A DNA stretch of 41,233 bases from Planctomycetota bacterium (GTDB lineage: Bacteria; Planctomycetota; Planctomycetia; Pirellulales; Pirellulaceae): positions 1-41,233 of the forward strand of contig JAGWWZ010000020.1 of assembly GCA_018970165.1 (NCBI GenBank), written 5' to 3'. This document shows positions 7,971 through 24,087 of this stretch, piece by piece. Under the pieces are notes generated by a model. It ran no database searches. It saw only the letters and a list, made by a program, of their open reading frames with translations, and had not been told where the DNA came from. The position numbers were made by a program, and so were the translations under genes. How positions within the stretch are numbered: the first letter of the stretch is position 1; every line of letters starts with the position of its first letter.

Positions 7971-8963
7971 CTATGCCGCGTCCGTTAGGGAAGCCAGTTC
8001 CACGTTTTCGGCATGCGTGCCCACCGAGGTACCTATTACCTCGTCGATCAGAAATAAAGGCCGGCCTTTGCACTGATCATACATACGACCCAGGTATTCG
8101 CCCATGATACCAAGTACCATGAGTTGCACACCTCCGATGAGACCAACGCTCGCCATCACACTCGCCCATCCGGCGATCGTCGAGCCGCCCAGCCAGCCAA
8201 CAATTGCGTAGAGGAAGGTAAGGAAGCCGAAGGCCGAGACCGCAAGCCCCAGCGAACTAGCGATCTTTAAGGGACGCGTCGAGAAGCCGGTCACGGCGTC
8301 GATGGCAAAGCGGATCATCTTTCGTACGGGATACTTCGTTTCGCCGACGGCCCGAGGAGCACGATCGTAAAGCAAGGGAACCTGTTTGCCACCGATCCAA
8401 CTGATCATCCCGCGAATAAATCGGTGCTGCTCGGGCATCGCCATCAGCCGGTCAAGCGTTCGCCGCGACATCAATCGGAAGTCCCCGGTGTCCCGTGGAA
8501 TCGATACCTCGGAGAGTCGCGAGATGATCCGATAGAACAGCGAAGCGGTTGCTAGTTTGAAGAATGTTTCACCCTCGCGGCGGCGGCGTTGGCCATAGAC
8601 CACATCTGCGCCGTCATTCATTCGTTGCATCATTTCGGGCAGCAGTTCCGGCGGGTCTTGCAAGTCTGCATCGAGGATCAGGATCCGCTCGCCGCGGCAA
8701 AGTGATAACCCAGCGGTTAACGCGAGTTGGTGCCCGTGGTTGCGAGCCAGATTCACGACCACAACGGCCGAGTCCTCGGCAGCCAAGCGCCGCATCACTT
8801 CCCAGGTATCGTCCCGCGAGCCATCATTGACCAGGATGATTTCGTGAGGAACGCCGACCTGCTTGCAGATAGACGAGACTCGCGAATGAAACTCGTTCAG
8901 TCCTTCGGCTTCGTTGAAGCAAGGTGCGACAACGGAAAGATAGGGGGCAGGCTTGATTTTCAT
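7971..8963 (-). CDS. GT2 polyprenyl-phosphate glycosyltransferase with two C-terminal membrane helices
   Basis: This 330-residue enzyme has the layout of the GtrB/ArnC/dolichol-phosphate-mannose synthase group: a cytosolic GT-A domain beginning LSVVAPCFNEAEGLNEF, a nucleotide loop VNDGSRDDTW, the metal-binding DADLQDPPE (about residues 98-106), and GETKYPVRKM before two hydrophobic helices at about 235-300 that anchor it in the membrane. Such enzymes load a sugar onto undecaprenyl phosphate for use outside by a GT-C enzyme. ATG 8963 is preferred because GAAGG lies 8 bp upstream; an ATG at 9008 would add 15 residues without a clear site. The next gene upstream is a GT-C-like membrane protein, the expected partner. 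The sugar cannot be read from sequence. Confidence 0.88.
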   Translation of the reverse strand: MKIKPAPYLSVVAPCFNEAEGLNEFHSRVSSICKQVGVPHEIILVNDGSRDDTWEVMRRLAAEDSAVVVVNLARNHGHQLALTAGLSLCRGERILILDADLQDPPELLPEMMQRMNDGADVVYGQRRRREGETFFKLATASLFYRIISRLSEVSIPRDTGDFRLMSRRTLDRLMAMPEQHRFIRGMISWIGGKQVPLLYDRAPRAVGETKYPVRKMIRFAIDAVTGFSTRPLKIASSLGLAVSAFGFLTFLYAIVGWLGGSTIAGWASVMASVGLIGGVQLMVLGIMGEYLGRMYDQCKGRPLFLIDEVIGTSVGTHAENVELASLTDAA

Positions 8964-9017
8964 CGTAGAAGCCTTCGCTTGTTTCGTGAAAAGTTTCAAC
9001 CCGTTCATTTACTTTCT

Positions 9018-10841
9018 TCACTTTCTCGCTGTGTCATCGCGGAAACTTACGACCCTTTCAGGGTCGTCTACTCGCCTCAATTCGTATTGCGGACCTAGTA
9101 TGGGGTCGTTGTATACCAGAGTCGCTCGGTATTGCGCATGCAGCGCCGCGTGAATAGCCTGAGGCTTCTGCGGACCACAAACCGTCGAAAAACTCGTAAC
9201 CAATAGAGCCTCATCGGCATCCCAGATACGGTCTATCACCACTCGATACTTTAGTTCCAGTGCACGGTCAATGTGATCGGTTATATGTTTCGCGTGTTCC
9301 TGAGGCGTATGACTGGGATTGCGGACGGCATCGTTGATCAGGTAGAGGGGCGCGGCCAAACTTTCCTCATGACGTGGCGGTTCGTCAAGCGTGGGGGGGA
9401 AGGTTTGTGGCTGCTTCCACTCCACGAACCGCCACGTAATATAGCCATCGAATCCATGACTGACGAACACCGTGTCCTTCAGGTCGAACTTCTCCTTTAC
9501 CCGGACCAGTGCCTGAATATTCTGCGTATCGAGGCCGCGGTGCGGCCAGAACTCGTTCACGTTGTAAGCGAGAGGGAGCAGACTTGCACAGAGAAACGCT
9601 GCTGCTCTATACCGGCTTCTTAGAGGCTCTGACCCTAACACGAGCGCACCGAATAGAGCCCAACCAGAGGCTAGCCATGCCATCACATTGATCTGCATCT
9701 GCGGATCTTGCGGTTGGGTGTAGAGGTTCATCACCTGACCGCAGAACAATGTGCCCCCCAGACTGGAGAAGGCGACACGGTACCGCGCGTCCTTTCTGTT
9801 GCGCCAGACCTGCACGACGAACGCGACCGCCAGCAGACCGATGACCGCAAGACCAACGGAGAGTTGGAGATTCTGGTATGAGTTCAGTTGACCGCCGTGA
9901 AGATTGTGCCCACCGAGCAGCGACTGAGCAACACCAGCCCGGAGGAATGCGATCTTCTCGATGCGGAATCCGCCCCAACCGCTGCCAATTCCCTTCCCGG
10001 TCCAAACGATAGTACGGAAACAATCCGTAAACGTAGCGGGCATGCCAGGCTGTCCGCGAGCAATGAGTGCGGTGCATGCAACGGTCAGGAACACAGACCC
10101 GAGGAAGACGCCTGCCCACTTCAGTCGTTGGGTCCAGCGCCCCGGCAACATCAGGCATGCTAGGGTCAGGGCTGGCAATGTCGGGAACAACACGCGCCAC
10201 TCAAACAGCCAGGAGATCGTAAACAGAATGCCCACGCTGGCAATGCGCAACCTCGATGGTCGGTCCCACGTGGCTACTGCCAGCGCCAGTGCGGCGGCCA
10301 GCCAAGCGTAGCTCGCCATGATGTCCTCGTTGATGATCGACAGCAGCAGGAAAAAGCCGCAGCCCATTTGGAACAGAGAGCCGCCCCAGGCTAGAAGGCG
10401 CGACCGTGTCAACGCGGCGATCAGGAAATGCGTGCATGCTAAGGCCATAGCCCCGTAGAAGGCGTTCAGGTATGCCATTCGCTTCCATACCGGTCCGAGC
10501 GATTCGGGAAGGAAGGTGCGGATGACGAATCCGTGCCCCGGGAAATAGAGCAAGTTTGATGGATCGAGGCTACGATCCGGTGCAAGCTCCACCCACTTGG
10601 CGACAGGCTCGCTCTTCCAAAGGCCGTTGGTTGTCTCCAAGTGCGCATTTTGTAAAAGCGAGATTAGGGTGGAGAAGACGGCCAAGCCGATGCCGAACAC
10701 TAATAAACAGTCAAGTAGTGCGGGAGTATCCACACGCAGCTTGGGCTGTGAAGAAGCCTCTTCGGTCACCTGCGTCGTGTTGCCAACGAGTCGCATAAGT
10801 AAGGGCATCGAGAACCTTGAGAGGTTTCGCTCGAGGGGCAT
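9018..10841 (-). CDS. Polytopic membrane protein, GT-C glycosyltransferase-like
   Basis: A 607-residue protein with about ten to twelve hydrophobic segments between residues ~45 and ~450 and a soluble C-terminal part of ~170 residues. I do not recognise a defined family. The long first outer loop (LDPSNLLYFPGHGF region), followed by regularly spaced helices, resembles GT-C sugar transferases that use polyprenyl-phosphate sugars, and its neighbour is exactly such a donor-making GT2 enzyme. ATG 10841 is chosen because AGGAAGGA sits just upstream; the longer frame begins at a GTG at 10904 with no good site. The classical acidic catalytic motif of the first loop is not clear, so the transferase role is an inference from topology and context. 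Confidence 0.62.
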   Translation of the reverse strand: MPLERNLSRFSMPLLMRLVGNTTQVTEEASSQPKLRVDTPALLDCLLVFGIGLAVFSTLISLLQNAHLETTNGLWKSEPVAKWVELAPDRSLDPSNLLYFPGHGFVIRTFLPESLGPVWKRMAYLNAFYGAMALACTHFLIAALTRSRLLAWGGSLFQMGCGFFLLLSIINEDIMASYAWLAAALALAVATWDRPSRLRIASVGILFTISWLFEWRVLFPTLPALTLACLMLPGRWTQRLKWAGVFLGSVFLTVACTALIARGQPGMPATFTDCFRTIVWTGKGIGSGWGGFRIEKIAFLRAGVAQSLLGGHNLHGGQLNSYQNLQLSVGLAVIGLLAVAFVVQVWRNRKDARYRVAFSSLGGTLFCGQVMNLYTQPQDPQMQINVMAWLASGWALFGALVLGSEPLRSRYRAAAFLCASLLPLAYNVNEFWPHRGLDTQNIQALVRVKEKFDLKDTVFVSHGFDGYITWRFVEWKQPQTFPPTLDEPPRHEESLAAPLYLINDAVRNPSHTPQEHAKHITDHIDRALELKYRVVIDRIWDADEALLVTSFSTVCGPQKPQAIHAALHAQYRATLVYNDPILGPQYELRRVDDPERVVSFRDDTARK

Positions 10842-10950
10842 GCTATTCCTTCCTTTCTTCTCGCGATTAAGGTCACCGGGAAAACCTTGTCTGAGCGAGC
10901 TCACATTTTCATGTTTCAGAACGGACCCCTCTTTACCTATTTCTTCTAAA

Positions 10951-11727
10951 CTACGTCAATACCGGTTTCGGCTTTAGGACCATCATGAGTGACGTTCCTG
11001 GTACGACAGACGGCAGAAGTCGGGATTCAAGTTCGAGCCATCGCGCCATCAAGCCGTGTACGGCAACCGCTGCGCCCGTCGGAGCGGCGATCGATGTTGC
11101 CCGCCCTCTCCCGATCCACTTGAGCATCAAAGCTGGCCAATACAGAGAACGAAAAAGATAGCTCTGCCGTCGAATCTCGAAACGTGCCGGATTGAAAAGC
11201 TCGCACGCATTTTCGAAATCATAGCGTTTGTAATGACCGTAGTGCTCGTCATAGTTCGACCAGAGTTCTTGACGAGCGGGGACTGTCACAATGATCGTAT
11301 GGACCTTCTCAAAAGCATCCACCAAGCCGTCAAGAAAACTGCTTGGCGACGGCAAGTGTTCCAAGACGTCAAGCAAAAGAAGAACGCCGACGTTCCGGCG
11401 TGTTTCCTGGGGAAGCGAAACGGCATCCGTATCGAAATGAAGGTGGGGAGCGATTCGCGTCGAGATCGGATTCGCACGCCCGAGTTCACAGCCGAGAACT
11501 TCCATTCCTCGTTCATAGAGATAGTCGAGCGTGATACCACGGCCACAGCCAACATCGACAACCAGAGACGGCTTCGCAAAGGAAACGGCTTCTTGGATGG
11601 TGCGATGGATCGTTCGATTACGAGCTACAGTCCAGTAATGGCGCTCGATCCCATCCGGATAGGGATCGGAAAAGCCTTGTTCACTAAAGGCGGTTGGATG
11701 ATGAAGGTCGTGAGCGGAAGTGACCAT
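10951..11727 (-). CDS. Class I SAM-dependent methyltransferase
   Basis: A 258-residue Rossmann-fold methyltransferase. Motif I is LVVDVGCGRG (residues 55-64), the acidic end of strand 2 is GCELG, and LLLDVLEHLPSP matches the motif IV/post-IV region of the Methyltransf_11/23 group. Beyond residue ~150 comes YDEHYGHYKRYDFENACELF, a block often seen in methyltransferases of glycan loci. The start has AAGGA 7 bp upstream, and the gene follows another methyltransferase by only 10 bp, so the two are very likely translated from one message. The methyl acceptor is unknown; a sugar or lipid-linked glycan is inferred from the locus. Confidence 0.85.
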   Translation of the reverse strand: MVTSAHDLHHPTAFSEQGFSDPYPDGIERHYWTVARNRTIHRTIQEAVSFAKPSLVVDVGCGRGITLDYLYERGMEVLGCELGRANPISTRIAPHLHFDTDAVSLPQETRRNVGVLLLLDVLEHLPSPSSFLDGLVDAFEKVHTIIVTVPARQELWSNYDEHYGHYKRYDFENACELFNPARFEIRRQSYLFRSLYWPALMLKWIGRGRATSIAAPTGAAVAVHGLMARWLELESRLLPSVVPGTSLMMVLKPKPVLT

Positions 11728-11737
11728 GCTTTGTCCT

Positions 11738-12559
11738 TCAGGCTTTCTCTCCCCACATCACCATATTCCAGGCGAGGCGGCGAACGCCGGGCGTGCGGGT
11801 CAAAAGTCCATCAAAGGCAGCGAACGGTTTCCACCACCACAGCGTGCTTTCGCTTTCCTTCAAGATGCGCTTCCAATAGCGATCTTGGTTGGGATGCAGT
11901 CGATCGATCAAGTAATACTTCAGAAAAAGAGTCAAGGATGAGATCCAGAACTCTCGATGCTGAACCTTCTTAAAGTACTTGCCAGCTGTTTTTAGATCAT
12001 CGAAAGTCAATGGAGATTCGTCTTCGGTACGGACCTGTGTGGCCATCTTGCGATAGACGTTGATAATCGGGTTGTAAGCCAACGGGTCCCATGTAAAGAA
12101 CTTGCCGCCTGGCCGCAACACTCGTTGCATCTCTGAAAAGAATTGTTCTTTATCGGTCACGTGATGCACCGTGTTGGCGGAAAAGACAATATCGTACGAG
12201 GCATCCGGAACGCTCAATCGCTCTCCGGCCGAAACAACGCCATGAAGGGACACACCGTGATGTTTCCCCAGGCGAAGAGCAAAGTCGACCATGCCCGGTG
12301 AGATGTCCATCGTGGTCACTTCCGCCCCTTTCAAGGCGAAGTAGACCGAGGTTTCCCCAAGCCCGGCTCCAATGTCGAGCAATTTCTTACCTCGCAAATC
12401 CCCCATCTGTTCAAGGCAGAAGCGATTCTCGAATGCAGTCGGAGCTTCGAATGCCTCGCGCATGGCTACGTCCTCAACACGCGTACTACTGGCCCAGGCA
12501 TCGTGGAAATCTACTTCTTTGCCGTGGATGTGTTCGTTGGCGATATTGACGGTACTCAT
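11738..12559 (-). CDS. Class I SAM-dependent methyltransferase (Methyltransf_11 type)
   Basis: A 273-residue enzyme. Motif I is LLDIGAGLGETSVYFALKG (from residue 60), followed by VTTMDISPGMV for the SAM ribose contact and FSANTVHHVTD and VLRPGGKFF for motifs IV-VI. The C-terminal third is rich in aromatic residues (YYLIDRLHPNQDRYWK, STLWWWKPF) and may form the acceptor lid or a membrane-facing surface. The start is supported by AAAGG 8 bp upstream. It is the first gene of a tight methyltransferase pair. The acceptor is not evident from sequence; ubiquinone-type substrates are possible in principle but the glycan context argues for a sugar. Confidence 0.87.
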   Translation of the reverse strand: MSTVNIANEHIHGKEVDFHDAWASSTRVEDVAMREAFEAPTAFENRFCLEQMGDLRGKKLLDIGAGLGETSVYFALKGAEVTTMDISPGMVDFALRLGKHHGVSLHGVVSAGERLSVPDASYDIVFSANTVHHVTDKEQFFSEMQRVLRPGGKFFTWDPLAYNPIINVYRKMATQVRTEDESPLTFDDLKTAGKYFKKVQHREFWISSLTLFLKYYLIDRLHPNQDRYWKRILKESESTLWWWKPFAAFDGLLTRTPGVRRLAWNMVMWGEKA

Positions 12560-12712
12560 GTGGACGCCTTTGTTCCCCGATGCTAGGTGTTGGATGTAAC
12601 TATCCCAATAAAAATCGTTGACGAAGTCAATATCGCATTAAGACGCAAGCCACTTGGCTAGTGTGGCCATCTTCCCTATGGAAGTCGAAGAGGGGATCTC
12701 GCAAAAGTGCTG

Positions 12713-13759
12713 CTATTTCCCTCCATCAATTTGGCGGTAAAACCATGGCGAGTCTTTTTCGAATTCCTCAATGTACTTCGCATAACCACCAGCCAGCTTT
12801 TTCGGAGCGGCTTGCCGAAGAAGTTCGGACATCCCTTCATCGATTCCAATCAATGGACTTAATGAATCACGGTTATGCAGAAGGATCTCGGCAGCGCTGT
12901 CAGGCTGCCCGAATAACGAGAACAAGGCAGCCAACTTGAGCAGTTTCTTCGGAGATCTCATTCCGGAGGTTGCGAACTCGGGTGCAGCTAAATCTCGTAA
13001 ATACAGAGCATCTCCTTGAAAGGGTCTACCGGTCCGACTTTGGGCAGGAAAATCATAAATGTAAGGGCAAGGAAGCGCAGCCATCGAGTAACGCCGGAGC
13101 GACAAGTCGAACAGTTCGAAGCCGGCTTTCCGCATCATACGATCGACGTTGTGGAACGTATTCACGTTGGGCTCCTCGGAGCCAAAAAAATTGACTTCAA
13201 TTCCAACGCCGATGACTTTTCTAGATTCCAGGATCGGCTGGATCGAACGCAAGATGAGTAGATCCGCTCCATCGACATCGATTTTGATGAAATCAATGTC
13301 ATCGATCGAGTTTTCCTCAACAAATTCCGGAAGAATGATCGGCTTCTTTGGATTAGCCAACTGCGTCTGCTGCCACAAGTTGAGCCTAAGCTTTTCTTCA
13401 TCCGTTGCACCCTTCATCGCGGCCGAACGAATTTCCAAGGTCTTGCAAACACTGAGGCGATTCCAGGGTGATCGGTCCCAATACGAACCAGTCTCCATCA
13501 ACTCGGAACCCGGGCAATCCGATGGGACACCGACAAATCCTGCAACAAATTTCACATGTCGATTTTCTTCTTGTTCATTCAGTCTTCGAATGTCGGCAAG
13601 GTTGGGATCAAATCCAAAGGCGCGCAATGCCCCTCCGAAATTTCTCCAACCGGAATCGAGACCTCCACTGCATCCCACATCGAAAACAGTGAAGAAGTCT
13701 GGAGCAAGTGATTTTGCTGCAATCTTCGGAAATGATGCATCGGATACCATACCTTCCAT
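12713..13759 (-). CDS. FkbM-like methyltransferase
   Basis: A 348-residue protein with an FkbM-type core. The SAM motif is FDVGCSGGLDSGW (about 26-38) followed by AFGFDPN; DDIDFIKIDVDGADLLILR is the signature strand of FkbM enzymes. The glycine pattern in motif I (VGCSGG) is less regular than the usual VGAN-G. A C-terminal tail of about 85 residues after RPFQGDALYLRDLA is helical and of unknown role; it mentions no recognised domain. AGGAG 8 bp upstream supports the start. The gene lies 86 bp after the giant fusion protein, which itself carries two FkbM domains. FkbM enzymes are O-methyltransferases; the sugar acceptor here is inferred from the locus. Confidence 0.8.
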   Translation of the reverse strand: MEGMVSDASFPKIAAKSLAPDFFTVFDVGCSGGLDSGWRNFGGALRAFGFDPNLADIRRLNEQEENRHVKFVAGFVGVPSDCPGSELMETGSYWDRSPWNRLSVCKTLEIRSAAMKGATDEEKLRLNLWQQTQLANPKKPIILPEFVEENSIDDIDFIKIDVDGADLLILRSIQPILESRKVIGVGIEVNFFGSEEPNVNTFHNVDRMMRKAGFELFDLSLRRYSMAALPCPYIYDFPAQSRTGRPFQGDALYLRDLAAPEFATSGMRSPKKLLKLAALFSLFGQPDSAAEILLHNRDSLSPLIGIDEGMSELLRQAAPKKLAGGYAKYIEEFEKDSPWFYRQIDGGK

Positions 13760-13845
13760 CGAAACACTCCTCGGCGTAATTTATAGAATGAACTCTTTCG
13801 TTCCGGCAACAATCGCTGGAAAAATCGGGGTTACTCGCACCGGAG

Positions 13846-16800
13846 TTAGCATTCGTCCGCACACTGAGGCGATTTCTGAATGGTCCCATCATGCCCGCCA
13901 TCAATCTGTTCAATCAGACAGATCTTTTCGCGGGGGACTGCAACCACGTTGTCAGAGTAGCTTCCCTCTCGTGCAACCACCAACTTTCCAGTTACCGAAT
14001 CAAAATTGTAGATGCAATACTCACCTGACTCGATTAGTTCCGCGACATCGGAACAGGAGCTTCCTTGAAGTCGAAGGGATGCATCATTCATCTCCATCAG
14101 TAGAACCGGACGAAATCGCTTCAGAGTTTCGAGGGCGCCTCGCAGCACTCGCTCCTCTGCACCTTCGACATCGATTTTCATCAGATCGATACGATCCATC
14201 GTATGAGCGGCGAAATAGCAATCCAACGTGATGAGAGTTGCCGTTTGTGTTCCATCCTGGTTCACTTTGTGAGCGAAACCGCCAAGGGTGTTTTGCCCTT
14301 CGTGACCGTACTCGCAGAGCTTGAGGATGGCTTCACCATCTATGTCAGCGACTCCCTTGATTTCCACGGTAACATTTGTCGCTTCATTGAGTTCGAGATT
14401 CCGCAGCAATCGATCCGCTTCGCGTTGGCTTGGTTCAAAGGCAACAACTCGACCATCCTCGCCGACACGATCGGAAGCAAAGACGGAATAGAATCCTTCA
14501 TTGGCTCCGATATCGATGAAGTTCATTCCCTTCCGGAGAAAGGCATTCAGGAAGAAGAACTCATTAGGATCGATCACACCGGACACGTAAGTTGGTAAGC
14601 TCATATCGTTACCCAAATACAGGTGCAATCGAAGATGATCGTACCACTGGAACAAGAGGGGCTTCGTTAACTTCCGTTCCTGGAAAACGCTGAAGAGAAT
14701 TTGGCGGAAACAACTGGCGAGAGACCGGTCATCGGCATAGCTACCAAAAGACCAATGACTCTTACGTTGTATGACGCTTTTGGCTGCTTGGGATTGGGCG
14801 AGGGAAACCAAATGATCCGGGTGCATTCCGAGCAGCGTCTTCCTCAAGACTTGTTCGTCCTGAGGCGACTGAAGGGGGGATGCGTTGCATTCGTCTTGCG
14901 GCCAGGGGTCGAGCTGAAAGAAGAGGAGATTCTCCTCCTGGCCATGGGTTTGGGACTGCTCGGAAACGAGAGCGAACCCACGACTTGCCAGATACGCGAT
15001 GATCTCATGCTTAATTGCAGCGCCGATATAGAGTTGTTGTACTGTAGTCGTTACTTCCAACTTGATCTTTCGGACATCCTTAATTCGATCGCCGAGTGAT
15101 TTGACCACGGAAAAATCACCCCCTTGAGCATCGATTTTCAAAAAATCAACATGCTGGATGCCGAGCCAGTTCATGACATCATCGAGCCGCATCACGGGGA
15201 CCATGATCTGCGTAGCGCGCGATAGGACTTCACCGCCGATCCATTGTTGACGCGCCGATTCGTCCATGGGAAGTATTGAGCTGGCTGCGGAGAATGCGTT
15301 CAAATGGAACTCGGTTAATCCCGTCTGCTCCCCGATAGCGATCGGGAGAATCTGAAAGTTTTGGAGACGTTGAAACGTCTGACTCGCCAGTGCGATGTTC
15401 GGTTCGAAGGCGATGACTCGCAGGTTGGGATTCGCTTCTGCCTTGGCAAACGATGTCTCACCCAAATGGGCGCCGACATCCAACCAGGTACCACGATCCG
15501 TTACCGGCACAGCGCACTGGAGCAAACATGGATTCTCGCTCAATTGGCAGTTGGTCAATCGCGATTTCGCACCGACGAAAACAGCACGGTAGAGTTTTCT
15601 AGGTGACGGTGCGATCCAATTTTGCTCAAAGTCGTGATGGTTGGGTTGAGTTACCGTTTGGTAGGCAAACCCCATATGTCGCCGCAATTCACTCATCACC
15701 CAGGATCGGGTGGGTCGGCAACCCATACCGGTGAAGGCTTGGTTGACGACCGAGGCAGGTTCTGCTTCGGGATGGAGCTCCTCCTCGTCGCCGGGTGTGA
15801 CACACGTTTCGAGCAAGATCATTCCGTCGCAGATGGCGGCGAGTCTCCGCAGAGCATTCGAGGGATTGGTCAAATGGTCGAGGGTGCCGTAGCAGTACAC
15901 GACATCGAATCGTCCCAGGTGGGACAGGTCGGAATCGGCGTCCAGGTTTACCAACGCGGTCTTGCGGTGCGGATACCGCCGCTTCGCTTCGTCGAGATTC
16001 TCTGCCCTAGCCTCGGCAAGCAATACGTCGCATCCCTGGCTTTCGAAAAAGCAGGTATGCAAACCGATTCCACCTCCGACTTCGAGGACTCGTTTGTTCT
16101 TGAGATCCAGACCGAGGGAGGCCAGATGGCAGAGTCTCGCTTCATTGATCGCGAGGGCTTCGGGTGTGAGAAAGACGTCGAACGATGGCGGGCTTGGATG
16201 CTCGGCCGTGATTCTTTCGGAGTGCGTTTCGGGTGCCGATTCGGGGAAAGTTATCTCAGTGGGTTGATCGAGCACGCTTGTTGCCTCAATGGAGATCGGC
16301 AACACCTCGCTTCGCGTCTTCCCAGGAATCTTCATCCTCTCCAACTTCCGCTGCTTGACTCCGCTCGTGGCGTAGGACTCAACAGTAGAAGGATTCTGAA
16401 ATTCGGTGGATCGGTCGATGCGTCGAGTCTGAATGTTACGAACTTCGAAATCGTGGGATCCCGAGGTCCACATACGGATTTCTAAGCTGGAACTCTTCTC
16501 GCATTCGAAATCGATGTCTACTTTGCCATCAAACAATTCCTGTTGGCTCAGTCGGCGTTTGGCGATCACTTGATCTCCAAGAACCAATTTGATCTTTGCA
16601 TGACCTTTGAGTCGGTCTCTCAACTGGGTTGCGCGGAGGATCCGTTTGCATGCCAGTTCGAGTGACACCTGAAATTTGCCTCGGCTTATGGGCAAGTAAG
16701 GACCATACATGACCAGACCTGGCTTCCTGGCTGCGGTGGAGATTACTTTGTTCTGTTTCATTCCGGCTTCGCCGACGCGCATGAAATCCAGCCATGTCCC

Positions 16801-18306
16801 CTCTTGGCTAACCGCAGGTCGCTTCACGACAAAGCCCTGGCGGATCCGGGAACTGAACGGTGTTCTGGCAGTGTGCAAGCAATGGTTGGTAATCGATTCA
16901 AAGGCATTGTGGATGGCGTTCACGACGACGAATCGTCGGGGCAAATGACCCGCGTTCAAGTGATTTTGCTCGAACTCGACCAACTCCAAGAAAGAGTTTC
17001 GAATCGCCTCAAGTAGTTTCTCGGCTTTGTTGGGATCTTGATCTGCGGCGAAGGGGTTGTAGTCGAAGATCAAGGCGTCAACTTGACTATTGAGCTCTTC
17101 GAGGGAATCGACATGTTCACCGGCCAGTTTGGTCCCGAGAGTGTCGCAGTGGGGTTCGAAAACAAGAAGTCGGGATTCGTCATCAATTCTCGACCAGATT
17201 GTGGAGAACATTTCAAAGAGTTCAGGGTTACTGCCAACCCAACCAATAGATATGCGAGGGGGCGCGTTGACGAAGATATCTGCAAGGAATGGCAGAACAT
17301 GCGCGGCGCTGTAGGTGACCTTATCGTATGTTTCTCGCACGTAAGCGGAATATGTGGGAACGAGTTGCGGGGTGTGAATACATGCGCTGATACCAGCCAT
17401 GTAGGCACGATCACGCCCATGATTGAGGCTGATCTCTTCGACCTCTACATCAGCTAGACCCCAAGAATCGGCTTGTTCAGGAATGTACGGCGTAAGAACA
17501 TCATCAATAAATGTCTTAATATCGTTTTGGACACTGTCCTTGCGGTGCATGGGAGTGACTTGCCGCGTGTGGTCGCAATGATAGCCAAAGACATGGTCGA
17601 GCAGATCTTTCGTCTCGCCGTAGAAAAGATTGAGTCGTTTTGCAATATTGGAATCGACGTGCCATCCCAAGAGCATACCTTCGTGGAAAGCATGAATCTT
17701 AAAGAGGTCTTCGCGATCCATGAGTTGGAAATCCCCGGGAGCATCGAAGCGGATACACTCCGCCCCTGCAACGATCTCGTTGAGGTGTGCAACACGCGAC
17801 CATGTTCGGATTGCATCGATGGTTTGTTCGGGTTCGAGTCGATTGAAAGTTTCCCAAAACGTCTCTGGGATTTCGAAGCGAGGCAAGTGGTAGAGACCTC
17901 GCGGCAGATTATCGACATACATCGATAGCGATTGCTCGTGATGGGGTACAAAGATCATGTCGGTGTTGGTCGACAGAACCCAACGGTTGGCGGGATTCGA
18001 TCGTCGTACGGCGACGTTTCGCGCGATCGGCTCAAGGGCAATCAAGTGCGATTTTTCGCGAAATCGTTCGTGCATCCAAGGGCGAACGCGAAGAATACGC
18101 AATCGTTTCTTCGCATGATCGGTCAGCGTATCCTGGATGGCCTCGGGGAATGTTGGGAAGTCATCGGGACTGTTGTAGTCGACAAACAACAACTCATCAT
18201 CGTCGTGGGTCAACACCTGCGAAATGCAGTTGATGCTCAATGCAGCCCGCTTGTGAAGGTTGTAGCCGTAATTATCGTTCCTACCATACAGAATCACCGA
18301 GATCAT
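13846..18306 (-). CDS. Giant fusion: GT2-like glycosyltransferase + Rossmann-like segment + beta-sandwich + three methyltransferase domains
   Basis: A 1,486-residue protein. Residues 1-300 form a GT2-like domain starting MISVILYGRNDNYGYN with VLSTNTDMIFV as the likely metal/nucleotide-binding strand. Residues 350-500 look like a second alpha/beta fold (ISIGWVGSNPELFEMF, LLVFEPHCDT). Residues ~530-635 are beta-rich (MYGPYLPISRGKFQVSLEL, VDIDFECEKSSSLEIRMW), perhaps carbohydrate-binding. A low-complexity linker (~636-715) leads to a class I methyltransferase (~735-915; VLEVGGGIGLHTC, YCYGTLDHL), then FkbM domain 1 (~938-1135; WLDVGAHLGETSF, DFLKIDAQGGD) and FkbM domain 2 (~1210-1460; FIDIGANEGFYSVFA, DLMKIDVEGAEERVLRG). 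ATG 18306 is chosen because AGAGGA is 8 bp upstream; the longer frame runs into ugd. It probably builds and multiply methylates one glycan. No stop or frameshift interrupts it. Confidence 0.85.
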   Translation of the reverse strand: MISVILYGRNDNYGYNLHKRAALSINCISQVLTHDDDELLFVDYNSPDDFPTFPEAIQDTLTDHAKKRLRILRVRPWMHERFREKSHLIALEPIARNVAVRRSNPANRWVLSTNTDMIFVPHHEQSLSMYVDNLPRGLYHLPRFEIPETFWETFNRLEPEQTIDAIRTWSRVAHLNEIVAGAECIRFDAPGDFQLMDREDLFKIHAFHEGMLLGWHVDSNIAKRLNLFYGETKDLLDHVFGYHCDHTRQVTPMHRKDSVQNDIKTFIDDVLTPYIPEQADSWGLADVEVEEISLNHGRDRAYMAGISACIHTPQLVPTYSAYVRETYDKVTYSAAHVLPFLADIFVNAPPRISIGWVGSNPELFEMFSTIWSRIDDESRLLVFEPHCDTLGTKLAGEHVDSLEELNSQVDALIFDYNPFAADQDPNKAEKLLEAIRNSFLELVEFEQNHLNAGHLPRRFVVVNAIHNAFESITNHCLHTARTPFSSRIRQGFVVKRPAVSQEGTWLDFMRVGEAGMKQNKVISTAARKPGLVMYGPYLPISRGKFQVSLELACKRILRATQLRDRLKGHAKIKLVLGDQVIAKRRLSQQELFDGKVDIDFECEKSSSLEIRMWTSGSHDFEVRNIQTRRIDRSTEFQNPSTVESYATSGVKQRKLERMKIPGKTRSEVLPISIEATSVLDQPTEITFPESAPETHSERITAEHPSPPSFDVFLTPEALAINEARLCHLASLGLDLKNKRVLEVGGGIGLHTCFFESQGCDVLLAEARAENLDEAKRRYPHRKTALVNLDADSDLSHLGRFDVVYCYGTLDHLTNPSNALRRLAAICDGMILLETCVTPGDEEELHPEAEPASVVNQAFTGMGCRPTRSWVMSELRRHMGFAYQTVTQPNHHDFEQNWIAPSPRKLYRAVFVGAKSRLTNCQLSENPCLLQCAVPVTDRGTWLDVGAHLGETSFAKAEANPNLRVIAFEPNIALASQTFQRLQNFQILPIAIGEQTGLTEFHLNAFSAASSILPMDESARQQWIGGEVLSRATQIMVPVMRLDDVMNWLGIQHVDFLKIDAQGGDFSVVKSLGDRIKDVRKIKLEVTTTVQQLYIGAAIKHEIIAYLASRGFALVSEQSQTHGQEENLLFFQLDPWPQDECNASPLQSPQDEQVLRKTLLGMHPDHLVSLAQSQAAKSVIQRKSHWSFGSYADDRSLASCFRQILFSVFQERKLTKPLLFQWYDHLRLHLYLGNDMSLPTYVSGVIDPNEFFFLNAFLRKGMNFIDIGANEGFYSVFASDRVGEDGRVVAFEPSQREADRLLRNLELNEATNVTVEIKGVADIDGEAILKLCEYGHEGQNTLGGFAHKVNQDGTQTATLITLDCYFAAHTMDRIDLMKIDVEGAEERVLRGALETLKRFRPVLLMEMNDASLRLQGSSCSDVAELIESGEYCIYNFDSVTGKLVVAREGSYSDNVVAVPREKICLIEQIDGGHDGTIQKSPQCADEC

Positions 18307-18362
18307 GTGAAATTCCTCTATTTCCAAAGACCGCTTGGATAAGCTATCGGTTCGATGCGAAA

Positions 18363-19763
18363 TCAAGCGGCGATTGTCCGACGCTGGGGCTCGCTTCCTC
18401 GTACGCACGTCGATCGTCCGGGAACGATGTGTTTCGCCAATGCGGACTTCACCGAGTCCGATACAACGCCCCATGGGTCAACGACCACGCGGGCGCGATC
18501 TTCCTGACAGAAGGCTTCACGCGTCAGCGCCGCGTACTCAGGCGATGGCGTCATCACCACAACCACATCCGCGAGATTGATCGCATCTTGCGCGGACTGG
18601 GCGAAACGCACCTTATCGCCTAGCTTTTGCTTCGCACTCTCAGCGGCGATCGGGTCGAAGGCCACAACCGCGTGGCCAGCATCCGCAAGGATCTCGGCCA
18701 ACATCACTCCTTGAGAAGCCTCCACGACAGGCGTGTGCGGCTTGTATGACATGCCGAGAATCGCAACGCAGCCGTTTTCCGGAAGAGACAACTCCACGAT
18801 GTCCGTCATTCGAACCAACTGGTGATCGTTGATTCGATCGGTCGCTTCGGCCAAATCGCATCGGACGCCTAGCCGATGCCCGAGTGCCACAAAGGCCTTG
18901 TTGTCGCGCGGGAAGCAAGGGCCACCATAACCGACAGCGCTCTTGATGTACTTCTTGCCGATCCGACTGTCTGCGCCGATCGCATTGCTCACCACGCTCG
19001 CATCCGCCTGGGGAAGATGATCGCACATCTCGGAAATCATGTTCGCGTACGAAATCTTAGTCGTTACAAACGTATTGACGGAAATCTTCGTCAACTCAGC
19101 ATTTACACAATTCATTCGATGAATCTCTGGGTTCGACTGCGTGGATGCCGTGTAAATTAGTTCGAGGATGTCACCCGCCTTTTTGTCCGACTCGCCGATC
19201 AAGATCATATCGGGGAAGAGCATGTCGCGGATCACGGAACCCAACGCGATGAACTCGGGGTTGTAGCACAAACCGAGGTTCTCCCCAACCTTGCGCCCCG
19301 ACGCCGATTCCAATGCGTCGCGAATCTCGCCATCGGTCGATCCAGGCATGACAGTCGAAGTGACAACGACGAGGTGGTATTCCTTCTTCGCTCTCAATGC
19401 GAGACCGATTTTCGCTACCGCATCGACTACATACTTGTTTGTGAAACAGTAATCCGAACCGCTTGGAGTTGGCACAATCACGAAGGTCACATCCGAATGA
19501 CGAACAATTTGAGCGAAGTCCGTCGTTGCGGTGATCCGTTCGCGATTCCTGTCGATCAGTTCCTGCAGGCCCGGCTCTTCCACCGGCGCTCGCCCCTCGT
19601 TGAGGGCAGCCACAAACTGCTGGTTAATATCCAAGCCGATGATGTCAAAGCCCTTCTCCGCAAAGACCGCTACCATCGGAGAACCAAGCTTACCTAAGCC
19701 AACGACGGAGAGTTTTGGACGATTCCCTCGGTCTGCAATTTGGGCTTGAAAAATCTGTTTCAT
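18363..19763 (-). CDS. UDP-sugar 6-dehydrogenase (UDP-glucose / UDP-ManNAc dehydrogenase family)
   Basis: A 466-residue cytosolic NAD-dependent enzyme that oxidises a UDP-sugar twice to a UDP-uronic acid. The dinucleotide motif is VVGLGKLGSPMV near residue 20; VIVPTPSG and STVMPGSTD are family blocks; the catalytic cysteine is C283 in GYGGPCFPRDNKA; the UDP-binding C-terminal domain begins near ILGMSYKPHTPVVEAS. ATG 19763 is preferred because AGGGAGGT lies 8-9 bp upstream and within a longer version starting at 19790. The gene is 56 bp before the giant fusion. Sequence alone does not separate UDP-glucose from UDP-N-acetylmannosamine as substrate, so no symbol is given. Confidence 0.92.
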   Translation of the reverse strand: MKQIFQAQIADRGNRPKLSVVGLGKLGSPMVAVFAEKGFDIIGLDINQQFVAALNEGRAPVEEPGLQELIDRNRERITATTDFAQIVRHSDVTFVIVPTPSGSDYCFTNKYVVDAVAKIGLALRAKKEYHLVVVTSTVMPGSTDGEIRDALESASGRKVGENLGLCYNPEFIALGSVIRDMLFPDMILIGESDKKAGDILELIYTASTQSNPEIHRMNCVNAELTKISVNTFVTTKISYANMISEMCDHLPQADASVVSNAIGADSRIGKKYIKSAVGYGGPCFPRDNKAFVALGHRLGVRCDLAEATDRINDHQLVRMTDIVELSLPENGCVAILGMSYKPHTPVVEASQGVMLAEILADAGHAVVAFDPIAAESAKQKLGDKVRFAQSAQDAINLADVVVVMTPSPEYAALTREAFCQEDRARVVVDPWGVVSDSVKSALAKHIVPGRSTCVRGSEPQRRTIAA

Positions 19764-19945
19764 GAAAATGAACCTCCCTGTTCGATGCATTGTCCCAAGC
19801 CGATTGCAGTATGCTCAATCAGCTTCCACGCCGGGTTCCTCCCAGGCGCGACGTACGGTAGCGATTTCCGGAAATCCAGGCAAGATCGGTTTTTTGCCGA
19901 AGACTGGGTAAACTGCGCACTTACCATCCGCCTGGGGAGGCATCG

Positions 19946-20725
19946 CTAAGAAAGCCCCGGGGTAAAGAGATAATCGTGGTGAGAAACCTGCCTAGCGGAG
20001 TAGCCATAATCACAGATTTTGCTCACTCGCCCGCGGATTGTCTCAGCGATTTCCGGTGGGGCGGTACGAATATCGTGCCCTCCCATGATTTCGACCACCA
20101 GGATCGGTCGATCGCGCTGCAGCGTCTCGGAGGCACCCTGGATGCACTCCAATTCGTGTCCCTCGACATCAATTTTCATCAGCCCGATGTTTTTTAGTCC
20201 GAGCGAATCGATCCGTACACCTCGGACAGGGAGATAGCCTTGGTGGTTCTCCTGACTAACCCCCGCTCCACCTGCATTTTCCCAGGTCAGGATACTCGGC
20301 ATATAAAACTCAGTCTCTCGATCAGATGCAGCTAGGTTGATGCACTCGATATTGGGGTGGTTTCTGCAGTTGTTTAAAGTTAGCGAAAAGATCTCGGGAT
20401 GCGGCTCCAGGGCATAGATTTTCTCGCCGTGTCTTGCTTGTTTTGCTAGCGCAATGGAATGAAGTCCCAGGTTTGCACCTGCATCGATCACATTCCGACC
20501 CACGGGAAAGTGGTCATGGAAAAGCTTCACGATATCGGCTTCCCAAACGGTTATTCCGTCGGTCATCCATTTGGAAATGCCGCTGTCGCTTGCGAGCACT
20601 TTTAGCTTGCCGTAATACGCATGCGAGACGTAAACAAACGGACCTTCATGCCGGCAGATGGCTTCTGTCGGATACTTGGCAAACCGGAGGGCCTTGCGGA
20701 CGGTTTTCATCAATCTTGAGGTCAT
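19946..20725 (-). CDS. FkbM family methyltransferase
   Basis: A 259-residue enzyme of normal FkbM length. Motif I is NVIDAGANLGLHSIALA (residues 78-94), the SAM-binding acid is in IYALEPHPE (103-111), and the signature LMKIDVEGHELECIQGA lies at 182-198, followed by PILVVEIMGGHD. AAGGA about 10 bp upstream supports the ATG. The gene follows a GT4 transferase by 12 bp and precedes the UDP-sugar dehydrogenase by 182 bp, so it belongs to the glycan locus. Methylation of a sugar hydroxyl is the usual role of these enzymes in polysaccharide loci; this acceptor is unproven. Confidence 0.9.
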   Translation of the reverse strand: MTSRLMKTVRKALRFAKYPTEAICRHEGPFVYVSHAYYGKLKVLASDSGISKWMTDGITVWEADIVKLFHDHFPVGRNVIDAGANLGLHSIALAKQARHGEKIYALEPHPEIFSLTLNNCRNHPNIECINLAASDRETEFYMPSILTWENAGGAGVSQENHQGYLPVRGVRIDSLGLKNIGLMKIDVEGHELECIQGASETLQRDRPILVVEIMGGHDIRTAPPEIAETIRGRVSKICDYGYSARQVSHHDYLFTPGLS

Positions 20726-20737
20726 ACTAATTTGTCC

Positions 20738-22141
20738 TTAGGACGGAATTTTTTCAATCCGAGTTGCCGGTGATGCATGCATCGCTCGCAGGGAGTGGTG
20801 TTTTTTTCGATCGTGGGACTCGCTGCGTTCGCTTCGTCGAGTCCGAGCCATCTCAAGCGATGTCGCTATCACCTTCTCAGCCGACTCTTGCCAAGTCGGC
20901 AATCGAAAATCTACGGGAGGCCAAACCGCTGGGAATTTCCCACCCTTCGAATACTCAACGAGCAGATGGGTCAACGAACGCGAGTCGCGAGGATCGAAGT
21001 ACGCACAATATGCACCGCCGATTTCCTGGTGCACCGGAATATGGGATGCAAACACGGGCGTTCCTCTTATGATCGATTCGGCGATCGGCAACCCAAACCC
21101 TTCTGCGAGCGATGGAAACACGACCGCTTTCGCGCGCTCATAGGCATAGGTCAACTCCGCGTCCGATAGATCCGTTACCAGGAGGATGTTCTTGCCGTAG
21201 CGAGGATGTCTGCGAATCCTGTCGGCAATCGCTTTTCCCTCCCAACCAACAATCCCGGCAATCAGAAAACGCGCGTCAGGTGCGGCATGGAAGACATCAT
21301 CAAAGATGTCGGCTAGCAAGCCCTGATTCTTCCGAGGCTCGATGGTCCCTACAGTCAGATAAGGACCATCCGGCGCCCTGTCGATAAAACGAACAATTTC
21401 AGGTCGCTGTACTGCTGTTGAACTAACTGCCTTGAAGTTCGATCCGTTCAAACATGCTCGCACTCGATTCTCAGCGATATGTTTGCGACCAAGTTTTTGC
21501 AACTTATCGCGACATTCCCCGGAAATCGTCTCCGAAACTCCCAGCACAAAGTCTGCACGACCAAGCGATTCATCCACCCAACGTTCGAAGATCGCGGTAC
21601 TCTCGGGGGATACCAACTCGGGATAACGCAGGGGAATAAAGTCGTGTTGCAAGACCCCCAGTGAAACTCCCTGCTCCATCGCCTTGTCAATCTCAGTCCA
21701 CATCGGCTCCGACCAAGACGAATCGGGTAACAGCAGAATATCACTGGAACGAAATGTGAATCGACTCTCGCTGGACTGCCTGCGCGCTAAGAAACCTTGA
21801 AGCTTGGAGAATTGCCTCCGCACAGATCGGCCGACGAATATCTTTTTCAGTCGATGTCCGAACCGCTCGATAGCCCCGTTCGGTATGCGTCGCTCAGGGA
21901 TCTTGAGTTCCCCTTCGTCTGACAAAGGAGCCAACTCGAAGAACCGTCCCGTGAATTGGATGGGGAGAAGCTCAACACCCCGCCTGTGAGCAGCGACCCG
22001 ACCGTGCTTCACCAGATTCCGTACCACGCGTTGGATCCCAGTCACCGCCGACGTCTTCATGGTTTGCGTGCAATCGACGCACAAACGCAGAGGTCCCTCC
22101 CAGCTTTGCTTGTGGTCCGCCGATTCGATTCCGCCTGCCAT
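20738..22141 (-). CDS. GT4 family glycosyltransferase (GT-B fold)
   Basis: A 467-residue transferase. The C-terminal nucleotide-sugar domain carries YLTVGTIEPRKNQGLL (around residue 262), LIAGIVGWEG, and the E-x7-E motif EGFGLPIAE at 347-355, all standard for GT4 retaining enzymes. The N-terminal domain starts with LCVDCTQTMKTSAVTGIQRV; the TGIQRVVRN phrase is common in O-antigen mannosyl- or rhamnosyltransferases. ATG 22141 is chosen because AAGGTGGG is 7 bp upstream; an extra 11 residues from a TTG at 22174 lack such support. It is the first gene of the minus-strand glycan run and is 12 bp from the FkbM gene. Donor sugar not determined. Confidence 0.9.
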   Translation of the reverse strand: MAGGIESADHKQSWEGPLRLCVDCTQTMKTSAVTGIQRVVRNLVKHGRVAAHRRGVELLPIQFTGRFFELAPLSDEGELKIPERRIPNGAIERFGHRLKKIFVGRSVRRQFSKLQGFLARRQSSESRFTFRSSDILLLPDSSWSEPMWTEIDKAMEQGVSLGVLQHDFIPLRYPELVSPESTAIFERWVDESLGRADFVLGVSETISGECRDKLQKLGRKHIAENRVRACLNGSNFKAVSSTAVQRPEIVRFIDRAPDGPYLTVGTIEPRKNQGLLADIFDDVFHAAPDARFLIAGIVGWEGKAIADRIRRHPRYGKNILLVTDLSDAELTYAYERAKAVVFPSLAEGFGLPIAESIIRGTPVFASHIPVHQEIGGAYCAYFDPRDSRSLTHLLVEYSKGGKFPAVWPPVDFRLPTWQESAEKVIATSLEMARTRRSERSESHDRKKHHSLRAMHASPATRIEKIPS

Positions 22142-22344
22142 GGTTGATCCCACCTTTACTTGTCCCCTTCCCAAAGCGAAAGGATGGTAGATTCTTCACT
22201 CGTCTTTCACCAAGAGCAATCTCACCATTTCCACGCCATGGGTATCGCTAGCAAAGAACTGACTCCCGAAGTGAGAGTATTGCGACATCTGAAACCCGCT
22301 CCGGACGCAAGGCCTTTACTGAGCAGGGGCTATCGACAAACCGA
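22142..22344. promoter_or_regulatory. Intergenic gap upstream of the glycan locus
   Basis: This 203-bp stretch separates the end of polX from the first gene of the nine-gene minus-strand run, so the locus promoter is expected here. I found no -35/-10 pair that stands out, nor an operator palindrome or a stable terminator hairpin. The assignment rests on position only. Confidence 0.3.
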
Positions 22345-24087
22345 TCAGTGCTTCTGTAGCCACGATCGCATCGCCTGGAGATCTCGGGTGTTGAGGACAT
22401 TTTCTTTGGAAAGCCCTCCCCGACGGGCGACGGAGACTCCGTACTGCATCAACGCCAGATTCGATAACGAATGGGCGTCGGTGTTGATCACCAACAACAC
22501 CCCCGCCTCCGCCGCGCTAGATGCCATGATATCGTTCAGGTCGAGTCGCTCCGGGTTGGCGTTGATCTCAAGGCACTTATCAAATTCCTTCGCGGCTTGG
22601 ATGATCGCGGCCAAGTCGATTTCATAAGGGTTGCGGCGACTGATTAAACGACCCGTCGGGTGCGAGATCGAATGGACGCTCGGATGCCGAATCGCCCCGA
22701 GGATCCGGTCGGTGATCTGCTCGCGCGACTGACGAGTACCGAAGTGGACACTCGCGGTCACCCAATCGGCTTTCTCGAGACATTCATCGCTCAAATCGAG
22801 CGACCCATCCTCGAGGATGTCGCATTCGATCCCTTTGAAGATATGAAACGAGCCATCGAGCTTCTTATTGATCGCGTCGATCTGGCGCCATTGAGCGATA
22901 GCCCGCGCATCATCGAGCCCGCGTGCGATGGTGACTCGTTTGGAATGATCGGTGATCGCAATGTAAGCCAATCCCATTTCCTGGGCGCGGGCAGCCATCT
23001 CCTCGATGGAGTTTTCACCGTCGGTAGCGGTGGTATGCATGTGCAAGTCGCCGCGAATGTCGGTTAGCTGGATCAAATTCTTGATTCGGTCTTTGATATC
23101 GACACCAAACTCGCATCGATTCTCTCGCAGTTCCGGTGGAATCCATGGGAGGCCGATGACGCGATAGACTTCTTGCTCATCTCTGCCGGCGACACGTCGC
23201 GTTTCATCATGCGTATCGAAAACGCCGTACTCGTTGACTTTCAAACCTTTGGACTTCGCGAGCGATCGGACATGAACGTTGTGCTCCTTGCTACCGGTAA
23301 AGTATTGCAAAGCCGCTCCCCACGCTTCTGGTTCGACCACACGCAGATCGATTTGGAAGGCATCTGAGATACGGACGCTCATCTTGGTATCGCCGCGGGC
23401 GAGTACTTCCTGGATCGCAGGAAACTCGGCGAAGCGGTCCATAACCTTTTTCGGGGATTGGCTCGTGACGAGGATATCCAGATCGCCGATGGTTTCTTTG
23501 CGTCGTCGATAGCTGCCGGCGAATTCGATCTGCTCGATCTCAGGGCAGTCCGCAAAGTGTTCGCGCAGGCGCGATGCGAGCGTGTCGGCCGCATCGATCG
23601 ACAATCTCTTCGCGGCCTTTTCGACGATGCCGAGGTTCTGCAGGATCGACGCCTGTGTCTTGGTGCCGAAACCTTTGATCGCAGCAACTGCTCCCTGTTC
23701 GCAGGCTTCGCGAAGAGATGTCAGATCGCAGATCCCGAGCTCTCGATACAGTGCCATGGCTTTCTTGGCACCAAGTCCCGGCACCCGCATGATGTCGCGA
23801 AGGGTCGTCGGGATCTCGGATCTTAGTTTTTCGAGTTGTGGCAGATGCCCTGTATCGACGATCACTTTCGATTTTTCGGCAAGTGTCGCACCGATTCCCT
23901 CAATACTGGTCAGATCGAAATCTTTGGCGATCAAGTCGGCGACCGGATCGGCGAGCGCTGCAATCGCCATCGCACCGTGCCGATAAGCTCGAATACGAAA
24001 TGGATTCTCACCGGATAATTCCAACAGATCGGCCATCTCTTCGAAGAGAGCCGCGAGTTCGTCATTGCGGATTCGATGTTTGGTCAT
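22345..24087 (-). CDS. polX: DNA polymerase X family with C-terminal PHP domain (polymerase/3'-5' exonuclease PolX)
   Basis: A 580-residue protein, the usual length for bacterial PolX, which fills gaps in base-excision repair. An 8-kDa-like domain and helix-hairpin-helix motifs (IEGIGATLAEKS, VPGLGAKKAMAL, IKGFGTKTQA) cover ~1-165. The polymerase palm has AGSYRRRKETIGDLDILV (190-207) with catalytic D202 and D204 and the third acid D247 in FQIDLRV. The PHP metal site is visible as DLHMHTTATDG (347-357), TDHS (379-382), H448, SHPTGR (475-480) and NTDAHS (535-540). ATG 24087 overlaps the stop of the upstream glycosyltransferase by 4 nt (ATGA); a longer frame lies wholly inside that gene and is rejected. 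Confidence 0.95.
   Translation of the reverse strand: MTKHRIRNDELAALFEEMADLLELSGENPFRIRAYRHGAMAIAALADPVADLIAKDFDLTSIEGIGATLAEKSKVIVDTGHLPQLEKLRSEIPTTLRDIMRVPGLGAKKAMALYRELGICDLTSLREACEQGAVAAIKGFGTKTQASILQNLGIVEKAAKRLSIDAADTLASRLREHFADCPEIEQIEFAGSYRRRKETIGDLDILVTSQSPKKVMDRFAEFPAIQEVLARGDTKMSVRISDAFQIDLRVVEPEAWGAALQYFTGSKEHNVHVRSLAKSKGLKVNEYGVFDTHDETRRVAGRDEQEVYRVIGLPWIPPELRENRCEFGVDIKDRIKNLIQLTDIRGDLHMHTTATDGENSIEEMAARAQEMGLAYIAITDHSKRVTIARGLDDARAIAQWRQIDAINKKLDGSFHIFKGIECDILEDGSLDLSDECLEKADWVTASVHFGTRQSREQITDRILGAIRHPSVHSISHPTGRLISRRNPYEIDLAAIIQAAKEFDKCLEINANPERLDLNDIMASSAAEAGVLLVINTDAHSLSNLALMQYGVSVARRGGLSKENVLNTRDLQAMRSWLQKH

Follow-up and report, generated by a model that had tools for sequence, protein, structure and literature searches.

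The fused gene and its neighbours

Positions 13846-18306 of the window (the whole stretch of 41,233 nucleotides analysed here) contain 1,486 consecutive sense codons followed by a stop, a frame that an ORF scan places on the minus strand; across the same interval the plus-strand frame contains many stops. The frame of the 1,486-residue protein described in an earlier note on this DNA thus stands, with the addition of the strand, which the note had not given; all window features described below are on the minus strand. The frame can be extended upstream as far as 18474, and the ATG at 18306 aligns with the start of the first of two corresponding genes in a relative (see below). From its N-terminus, and as read from the ORF, the Pfam matches and the alignment with that relative, the deduced product comprises a GT-A head, an alpha/beta segment, a beta-rich stretch, a linker, a class I methyltransferase and two FkbM domains.

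The gene is surrounded by others that Pfam assigns to sugar transfer and methylation. Only 56 nt upstream lies a gene for a nucleotide sugar dehydrogenase of the UDP-glucose dehydrogenase type (18363-19790; Pfam and NCBIfam), and the same cluster also includes an FkbM methyltransferase (19946-20725) and a GT4-type glycosyltransferase (20738-22174). Downstream we found an FkbM-like protein (12713-13759), with a counterpart also downstream in the relative, two class I methyltransferase genes (11738-12559 and 10951-11727) and a GT2 (PF00535) gene (7971-9008), the product of which resembles polyprenyl-phosphate sugar transferases (PgfS and PRK10714 models, with scores below their cut-offs). The nine proteins scanned within 7971-22174, among them one of 628 amino acids without a family match in Pfam or NCBIfam, are all encoded on the minus strand, and the set looks like an ordinary glycan cluster. 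The Pfam match of the FkbM-like protein covers the later part of the domain alone (positions 102-173). Beside the glycan genes, 22345-24399 presumably encodes a PolX-type DNA polymerase/PHP protein, and no Rfam family was found at gathering score in the window or in the corresponding locus of the relative.

In the C-terminal half of the chain, a general class I methyltransferase occupies residues 708-900 (15607-16185), with Pfam matches to Methyltransf_23/12/25/11 at around residues 733-835, and both PF13489 (49.7 bits, cut-off 27) and PF08242 (44.8 bits, cut-off 30) exceed their curated cut-offs. It is followed by two FkbM domains (14974-15480 and 14029-14514), matched by PF05050 in two stretches of the whole protein (142.1 bits, cut-off 22.7), in separate searches of each segment (72.2 and 75.9 bits, E 7.5e-20 and 5.4e-21) and by TIGR01444 of NCBIfam (180.1 bits, cut-off 37.7). 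The FkbM family is marked by SAM motif I and by KID(V/A)(E/Q)G, which read WLDVGAHLG and KIDAQG in the first domain and FIDIGANEG and KIDVEG in the second. Pfam therefore confirms, segment by segment, the three methyltransferase domains proposed in the earlier note, one class I and two FkbM, and the SAM motifs that it considered intact are present at residues 740, 941 and 1263.

The two FkbM domains share only 26% identity and, in a tree with rows chosen by similarity to one or other of them, the first grouped with a sequence from another locus (L042; 96/81) and away from the second; the deep branches of this tree are weak, and the join to L042 is possibly a long-branch effect, according to a warning of the tool. 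Taken with the low identity, this grouping disfavours a recent tandem duplication, so that the joining of two different FkbM genes appears the likelier origin of the pair.

A predicted glycosyltransferase fold at the edge of GT2

The head covers residues 1-292 (17431-18306). The window sequence did not yield a direct family match: residues 1-640 retrieved no Pfam or NCBIfam model at E<=0.1 and no PHROGs match at E<=1, residues 1-330 no Pfam model, PF00535 (GT2) included, at E<=10, and NCBIfam searches of head sequences produced chance matches at most. Distant relatives were compared in an 18-row alignment of the window, the relative and 16 sequences from viral contigs, some of them near-copies of each other (two further near-copies, L095 and L096, were omitted). 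Ten of the 18 rows touch PF00535 at E<=1, the best at 7.5e-05, and the five PDB matches of the corresponding profile are all glycosyltransferases, at sub-threshold values (E 0.08-0.56). A profile of heads built without the viral sequences (A5) retrieved no glycosyltransferase from the PDB, which counts against this reading by sequence; it matched a ribosomal protein, an NADPH dehydrogenase and, at E 0.0012 and 0.0019, two rRNA-processing proteins. We rejected these matches because the rRNA-processing pair aligns to a variable middle stretch alone.

Structure prediction of the head gave a model with pLDDT 76.1 and pTM 0.82. Its best match in the PDB is the chondroitin polymerase K4CP (2z86/2z87; E 6.7e-08, probability 1.00), although at only 13-15% identity; K4CP contains two GT-A domains and is not known to carry a methyltransferase. 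There are 190 matches at E<=0.001, and the best 50 of these 190 are all glycosyltransferases, from families other than GT2 as well, with moderate superpositions (TM by query 0.32-0.58, rmsd 5.4-17.5); we take SpsA, RmlT, TarS, TarP and LARGE1, among these 50, to be glycosyltransferases, and the others were classed by title. On the strength of the PDB matches of the model and of the weak PF00535 matches of the relatives, we accept that the head has, by prediction, the GT-A fold of a glycosyltransferase and lies at the margin of GT2. The GT2-like head suggested by the earlier note is therefore retained as a predicted fold with distant relatives that touch PF00535, and not as a family assignment of the window sequence itself.

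The invariant columns of the 18-row alignment include N10, R20, N45, R101, N114, D116, G191, D192, F193 and D218. GT-A glycosyltransferases usually bind their metal through a DXD motif, and N114-T-D116 (NTD) stands in its place here; NTD would be the metal motif and D218 a candidate catalytic residue. The replacement of DXD by NTD, and the lack of a curated glycosyltransferase model matching the window sequence, would also fit a degenerate, non-catalytic fold that only binds the glycan, in which case the protein would be a purely methylating (capping) enzyme. We regard this as improbable, because D116, G191-D192 and D218 are invariant in the 18 rows and the head has the lowest dN/dS in the chain.

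Beyond the head, the chain continues with a conserved segment, residues 293-522 (16741-17430), which Azospirillum homologues also contain; residues 300-522 share 24-28% identity with them. The second alpha/beta segment of the earlier note is thus conserved, but it found no family in Pfam, in PDB profile searches or with hhalign. Cupin matches of residues 300-522 in the PDB profile search had E values of 0.46 or worse, and a DUF885 match in segment searches within residues 293-630 (E 0.0093) was below the cut-off and unconvincing. Likewise, hhalign comparison of residues 300-522 with the methyltransferase and FkbM profiles was negative, a weak test because the positive control, methyltransferase against FkbM, gave 33% with shallow profiles. 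Residues 523-630 (16417-16740) are predicted to be rich in beta strands, located at 538-630 with a pLDDT of ca. 47-68, in a low-confidence model (pLDDT 34 for the whole of residues 1-640, from two sequences). This stretch has little match to the Azospirillum proteins, and no Pfam match supports its reading as a beta-sandwich or carbohydrate-binding module.

Relatives of the N-terminal half occur in three settings. In planctomycetes, head homologues are proteins that either stop after the head or diverge beyond it. The N-terminal part was found in four of 396 genomes of the order, the window genome included, and a profile (A3) matched six of 392 genomes of the phylum, again counting that of the window; the other three and five matches extend at most over residues 2-153 and positions 2-150, respectively. 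Homologues of both the head and the second segment are 870-916-aa proteins from plasmids of Azospirillum brasilense, annotated as hypothetical (e.g. WP_237908268.1), which align with the window from residue 1 to residues 493-548 in blast comparisons, with 39-42% identity. These plasmid proteins share the two N-terminal elements with the window chain but differ in their C-terminal part, which showed no blast match to the methyltransferase and FkbM modules beyond a chance stretch of 14 residues; that this half is itself a methyltransferase was not supported (hhalign probability 0.7%), although the low score of the positive control makes this test weak as well. One such plasmid (L028:12001-17416) carries two adjacent paralogues of the N-terminal unit, 41% identical, both with a C-terminal part of ca. 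300 amino acids and both without a Pfam match at E<=0.1. Lastly, a profile of seven planctomycete heads retrieved 18 loci from viral contigs, 16 of which entered the fold alignment. Neither the window sequence nor A3, used as queries, found a head relative in viral contigs; the phage collection gave none either, and a planctomycete head used as a query against plasmids gave no match. These sequences outline a divergent GT-A family at the edge of GT2, distributed among planctomycetes, Azospirillum plasmids and viral contigs, for which the versions of Pfam and NCBIfam searched hold no dedicated model. One planctomycete head gene (L035:1-1962, minus strand) has its GDF motif set apart from the N-terminal motifs by long stretches that, judged by eye, look beta-rich.

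A relative with the chain split into two genes

The searches made retrieved a sole close relative of the chain, in the metagenome-assembled genome Prado165 (G025, locus L023 on contig C141; a second record, L004, is contained in L023 and both were counted as one). Among 60 relatives, and apart from the window's own genome, it is the only one that matches the chain outside the FkbM parts, nearly over its full length and in two pieces; likewise, a pattern-limited scan of a species-level genome collection, which may leave out near records, gave one relative. Here, an N gene encoding the head, the second segment and the beta-rich stretch is followed in the same frame by a C gene encoding the methyltransferase and the two FkbM domains, with four in-frame stops between them. 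The frame break that had been named as grounds for refuting the single chain is thus absent from the window and present in its relative. A dehydrogenase gene is also found upstream of the split genes, with one methyltransferase gene (L023:1630-2472) between it and the N gene that has no counterpart at that place in the window.

Comparison of window and relative by the Nei-Gojobori method gave dN/dS values of 0.042 for the head, 0.061 for residues 293-522, 0.126 for residues 523-630, 0.066 for the first FkbM domain, 0.162 for residues 1126-1215 and 0.115 for the second FkbM domain, while in the methyltransferase segment dS was saturated and dN was 0.13. Values of 0.04-0.16 in six of the seven segments indicate that both units are maintained. 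Since the relative encodes them as two genes, a single polypeptide is seemingly unneeded for function, and the fusion seems dispensable in the sister lineage.

The linker of the window, residues 631-707 (16186-16416), takes the place of the spacer and of the 5' end of the C gene in the relative, and is poorly conserved between both. At this junction 24 of 57 aligned positions differ, by scattered substitutions; a CGA in the window stands where the relative has its first stop, TGA, and an ACG where it has the ATG taken as the start of the C gene. The openness of the linker is weak evidence by itself, because 978 out of 20,000 random rearrangements of the bases in its 78 codons were also free of stops. 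It is very unlikely that two genes were joined in the window through a mistake of sequencing or assembly: although the assembly comprises 330 contigs, one of which makes up the entire window, the junction differs by these scattered substitutions and not by one indel alone, and the four in-frame stops of the relative are all absent.

The joint of the relative contains a 101-bp inverted-repeat element (G025:C141:4412-4512) with internal hairpins and an 11-bp terminal inverted repeat. Searches for this element gave 40 scored matches out of 96 candidates in the genome of the relative, some of them partial. The window genome has no match, and in three of the other 18 genomes searched the matches are mostly partial; the end pattern of the element occurs 52 times in the genome of the relative, compared to none for a control. 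To examine its flanks we took 20 copies from the relative besides that of the junction, mostly near full-length, and dropped one without a right flank, leaving 20 pairs with the junction. The 10 bp at both sides show an identity of 0.82 over the 20 copies, against a maximum of 0.57 in 500 shuffles, and the next 10 bases outward fall to 0.27, as for a target duplication, although three copies have poor duplications (L129, 3/10; L115, 5/10; L131, 6/10). At the joint itself the duplicates agree in 7/10 positions. By alignment, the window, which has no element there, contains a matching 10-bp empty site at 16408-16417, agreeing in 8/10 positions with the left duplicate and in 5/10 with the right. 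The repeat looks like a non-autonomous transposable element. Because the element and its duplication account exactly for the 111-nt length difference beside the joint, this difference is best read, from the sequence, as an insertion in the relative and not as a deletion in the window.

The order of events is less clear. The chain could be ancestral and the relative derived, with the element inserted at the junction of the two units and the C unit gaining its own start afterwards, and we hold this possible, if short of an even chance. It fits with the abundance of the element in the relative and its absence from the window genome, with the terminal repeat and duplication, and with the empty site of the window, through which the frame is open; this open site leans towards one gene before the insertion. 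However, the stops of the relative are also found outside the element, with a TGA at the left duplication, a TAA at the right one and a TAA downstream. Moreover, over the 57 nt that separate the site from the former start, substitutions are spread evenly over codon positions 1, 2 and 3 (8/7/9), and this lack of a third-position excess implies that the stretch is not clearly constrained coding sequence. These stops and this even spread lean towards two genes before the insertion. Azospirillum also contains relatives of the N unit without a C unit, and the element could have entered a spacer without any earlier fusion.

A further doubt concerns the product, since translation might restart inside the open frame and yield the N and C proteins separately, either instead of the full chain or alongside it. 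An internal ATG (Met658, 16333-16335), read from the sequence with a GGAG 3 nt upstream, is a candidate start for the C unit; the relative has an ATG at the aligned place and encodes two ORFs. We nevertheless consider a restart rather unlikely, because the window has ACG in place of the ATG that presumably starts the C gene in the relative, and the in-frame stops are gone, so that nothing forces termination.

Domain order, precedents and proposed function

Tandem FkbM pairs are as uncommon as the earlier note supposed. In 57 genomes of the order we found 137 PF05050 matches in 135 ORFs, only two of which, the window chain and one in G075:C11, contain two FkbM domains. Sixteen FkbM ORFs, the chain among them, exceed 500 amino acids, and a Pfam scan of ten others (E<=1e-5) identified two GT9-FkbM, one GT2-FkbM, one Wzy_C-FkbM, two TPR-FkbM and one FkbM-FkbM arrangement, and three without a second non-overlapping family. 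Thus, FkbM is fused to GT9, GT2 or a second FkbM in other members of the order (L069, L072, L078 and L075), but none of the ten combines, like the window chain, a glycosyltransferase, a general methyltransferase and two FkbM domains. The methyltransferase and first FkbM modules matched 18 of 117 genomes of the order, including its own, outside which no single match spans both. The domain order of the window was not found elsewhere among the 60 relatives, in the pattern-limited scan of the species-level collection or in the 117 genomes of the order. The multi-domain chain that had been proposed is hence upheld as one ORF with a glycosyltransferase-fold head and three methyltransferases, in an order that we found in no other genome searched. 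We found no paper on FkbM-glycosyltransferase fusions in planctomycetes. In all, glycosyltransferase-FkbM fusions are a known kind in the order, and the window chain is a new arrangement of modular glycan-assembly enzyme.

A viral-contig protein of 2,021 amino acids (L084:5959-12021) contains a head of the window type, two GT9 stretches, a methyltransferase and, at its end, weak GT2-like matches, along with a second head-like stretch judged by eye. As it joins the head with GT9 and a methyltransferase, this kind of fusion is already known, even if the order in the window is new.

Among the descriptions examined, the closest working precedent, by analogy, appears to be WsaE of Geobacillus stearothermophilus, described as an S-layer glycan enzyme with one N-terminal methyltransferase and two glycosyltransferases (PMC2943079). 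Compared by description, both join glycosyltransferase and methyltransferase modules in one polypeptide within a surface-glycan cluster, WsaE acting on one glycan (PMC2943079); for the window the likeness is at the level of fold and family and not of activity. The module order is not that of WsaE, a type in which methylation also terminates the chain, because the window has one GT-A head followed by three C-terminal methyltransferases, two of them FkbM (GT-MT-FkbM-FkbM). Likewise, ORF6 of Klebsiella O7 is described, in the part of the source consulted, as a multimodule O-polysaccharide enzyme that combines methylation and sugar transfer, with a methyltransferase-kinase and two glycosyltransferase modules; it differs by its kinase and methylphosphate cap, and that description mentions no FkbM pair (PMC11231755).

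We consider it fairly probable that the chain is a modular cytoplasmic enzyme of glycan assembly, in which the GT-A head adds a sugar and the three SAM-dependent modules O-methylate. Specifically, the head would move a sugar from a nucleotide-sugar donor onto a growing surface glycan, and the C-terminal modules would methylate hydroxyls of the same glycan; the polypeptide would join N and C units that are neighbouring genes in the closest relative, which may fix their stoichiometry and keep both together. This role is supported by the clustering of glycosyltransferase, FkbM, methyltransferase and sugar-nucleotide genes on one strand. From domain content and context we infer that every module is catalytically active, that hydroxyls of sugars are O-methylated and that the acceptor is shared, and the protein is probably cytoplasmic and translated in vivo as one chain. 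Against this proposal are a relative that manages without the fusion, the presence of NTD for DXD, the profile of heads (A5) that retrieved no glycosyltransferase, the moderate fold matches of the head, the unassigned fold of residues 293-630 and the internal ATG, which could give a separate C unit.

A more specific version, less probable than the general proposal though worth stating, would see the chain as a self-contained machine in which the head, of a type without a Pfam or NCBIfam model, adds a single sugar, which might be a uronate, and the three methyltransferases methylate it at different positions; the sister lineage has two genes with a mobile repeat at their joint. If this were true, nature would offer, in the fused machine and its split counterpart, a way to test the importance of the fusion. 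More generally, a set of enzyme modules that probably serves a single surface glycan occurs here as one gene and in a close relative as two, which makes it a testable case.

A uronate donor is suggested by the adjacent nucleotide sugar dehydrogenase alone, and is a guess because, when the neighbours of five out of eight planctomycete head loci were scanned (L025, L026, L027, L036 and L032), such a dehydrogenase lay beside the head gene in only one, L025, from another genome of the order. An epimerase-type gene is found beside the head in L026, L027 and L036, and in L032 the head is flanked by a methyltransferase on one side and by a protein without a match on the other.
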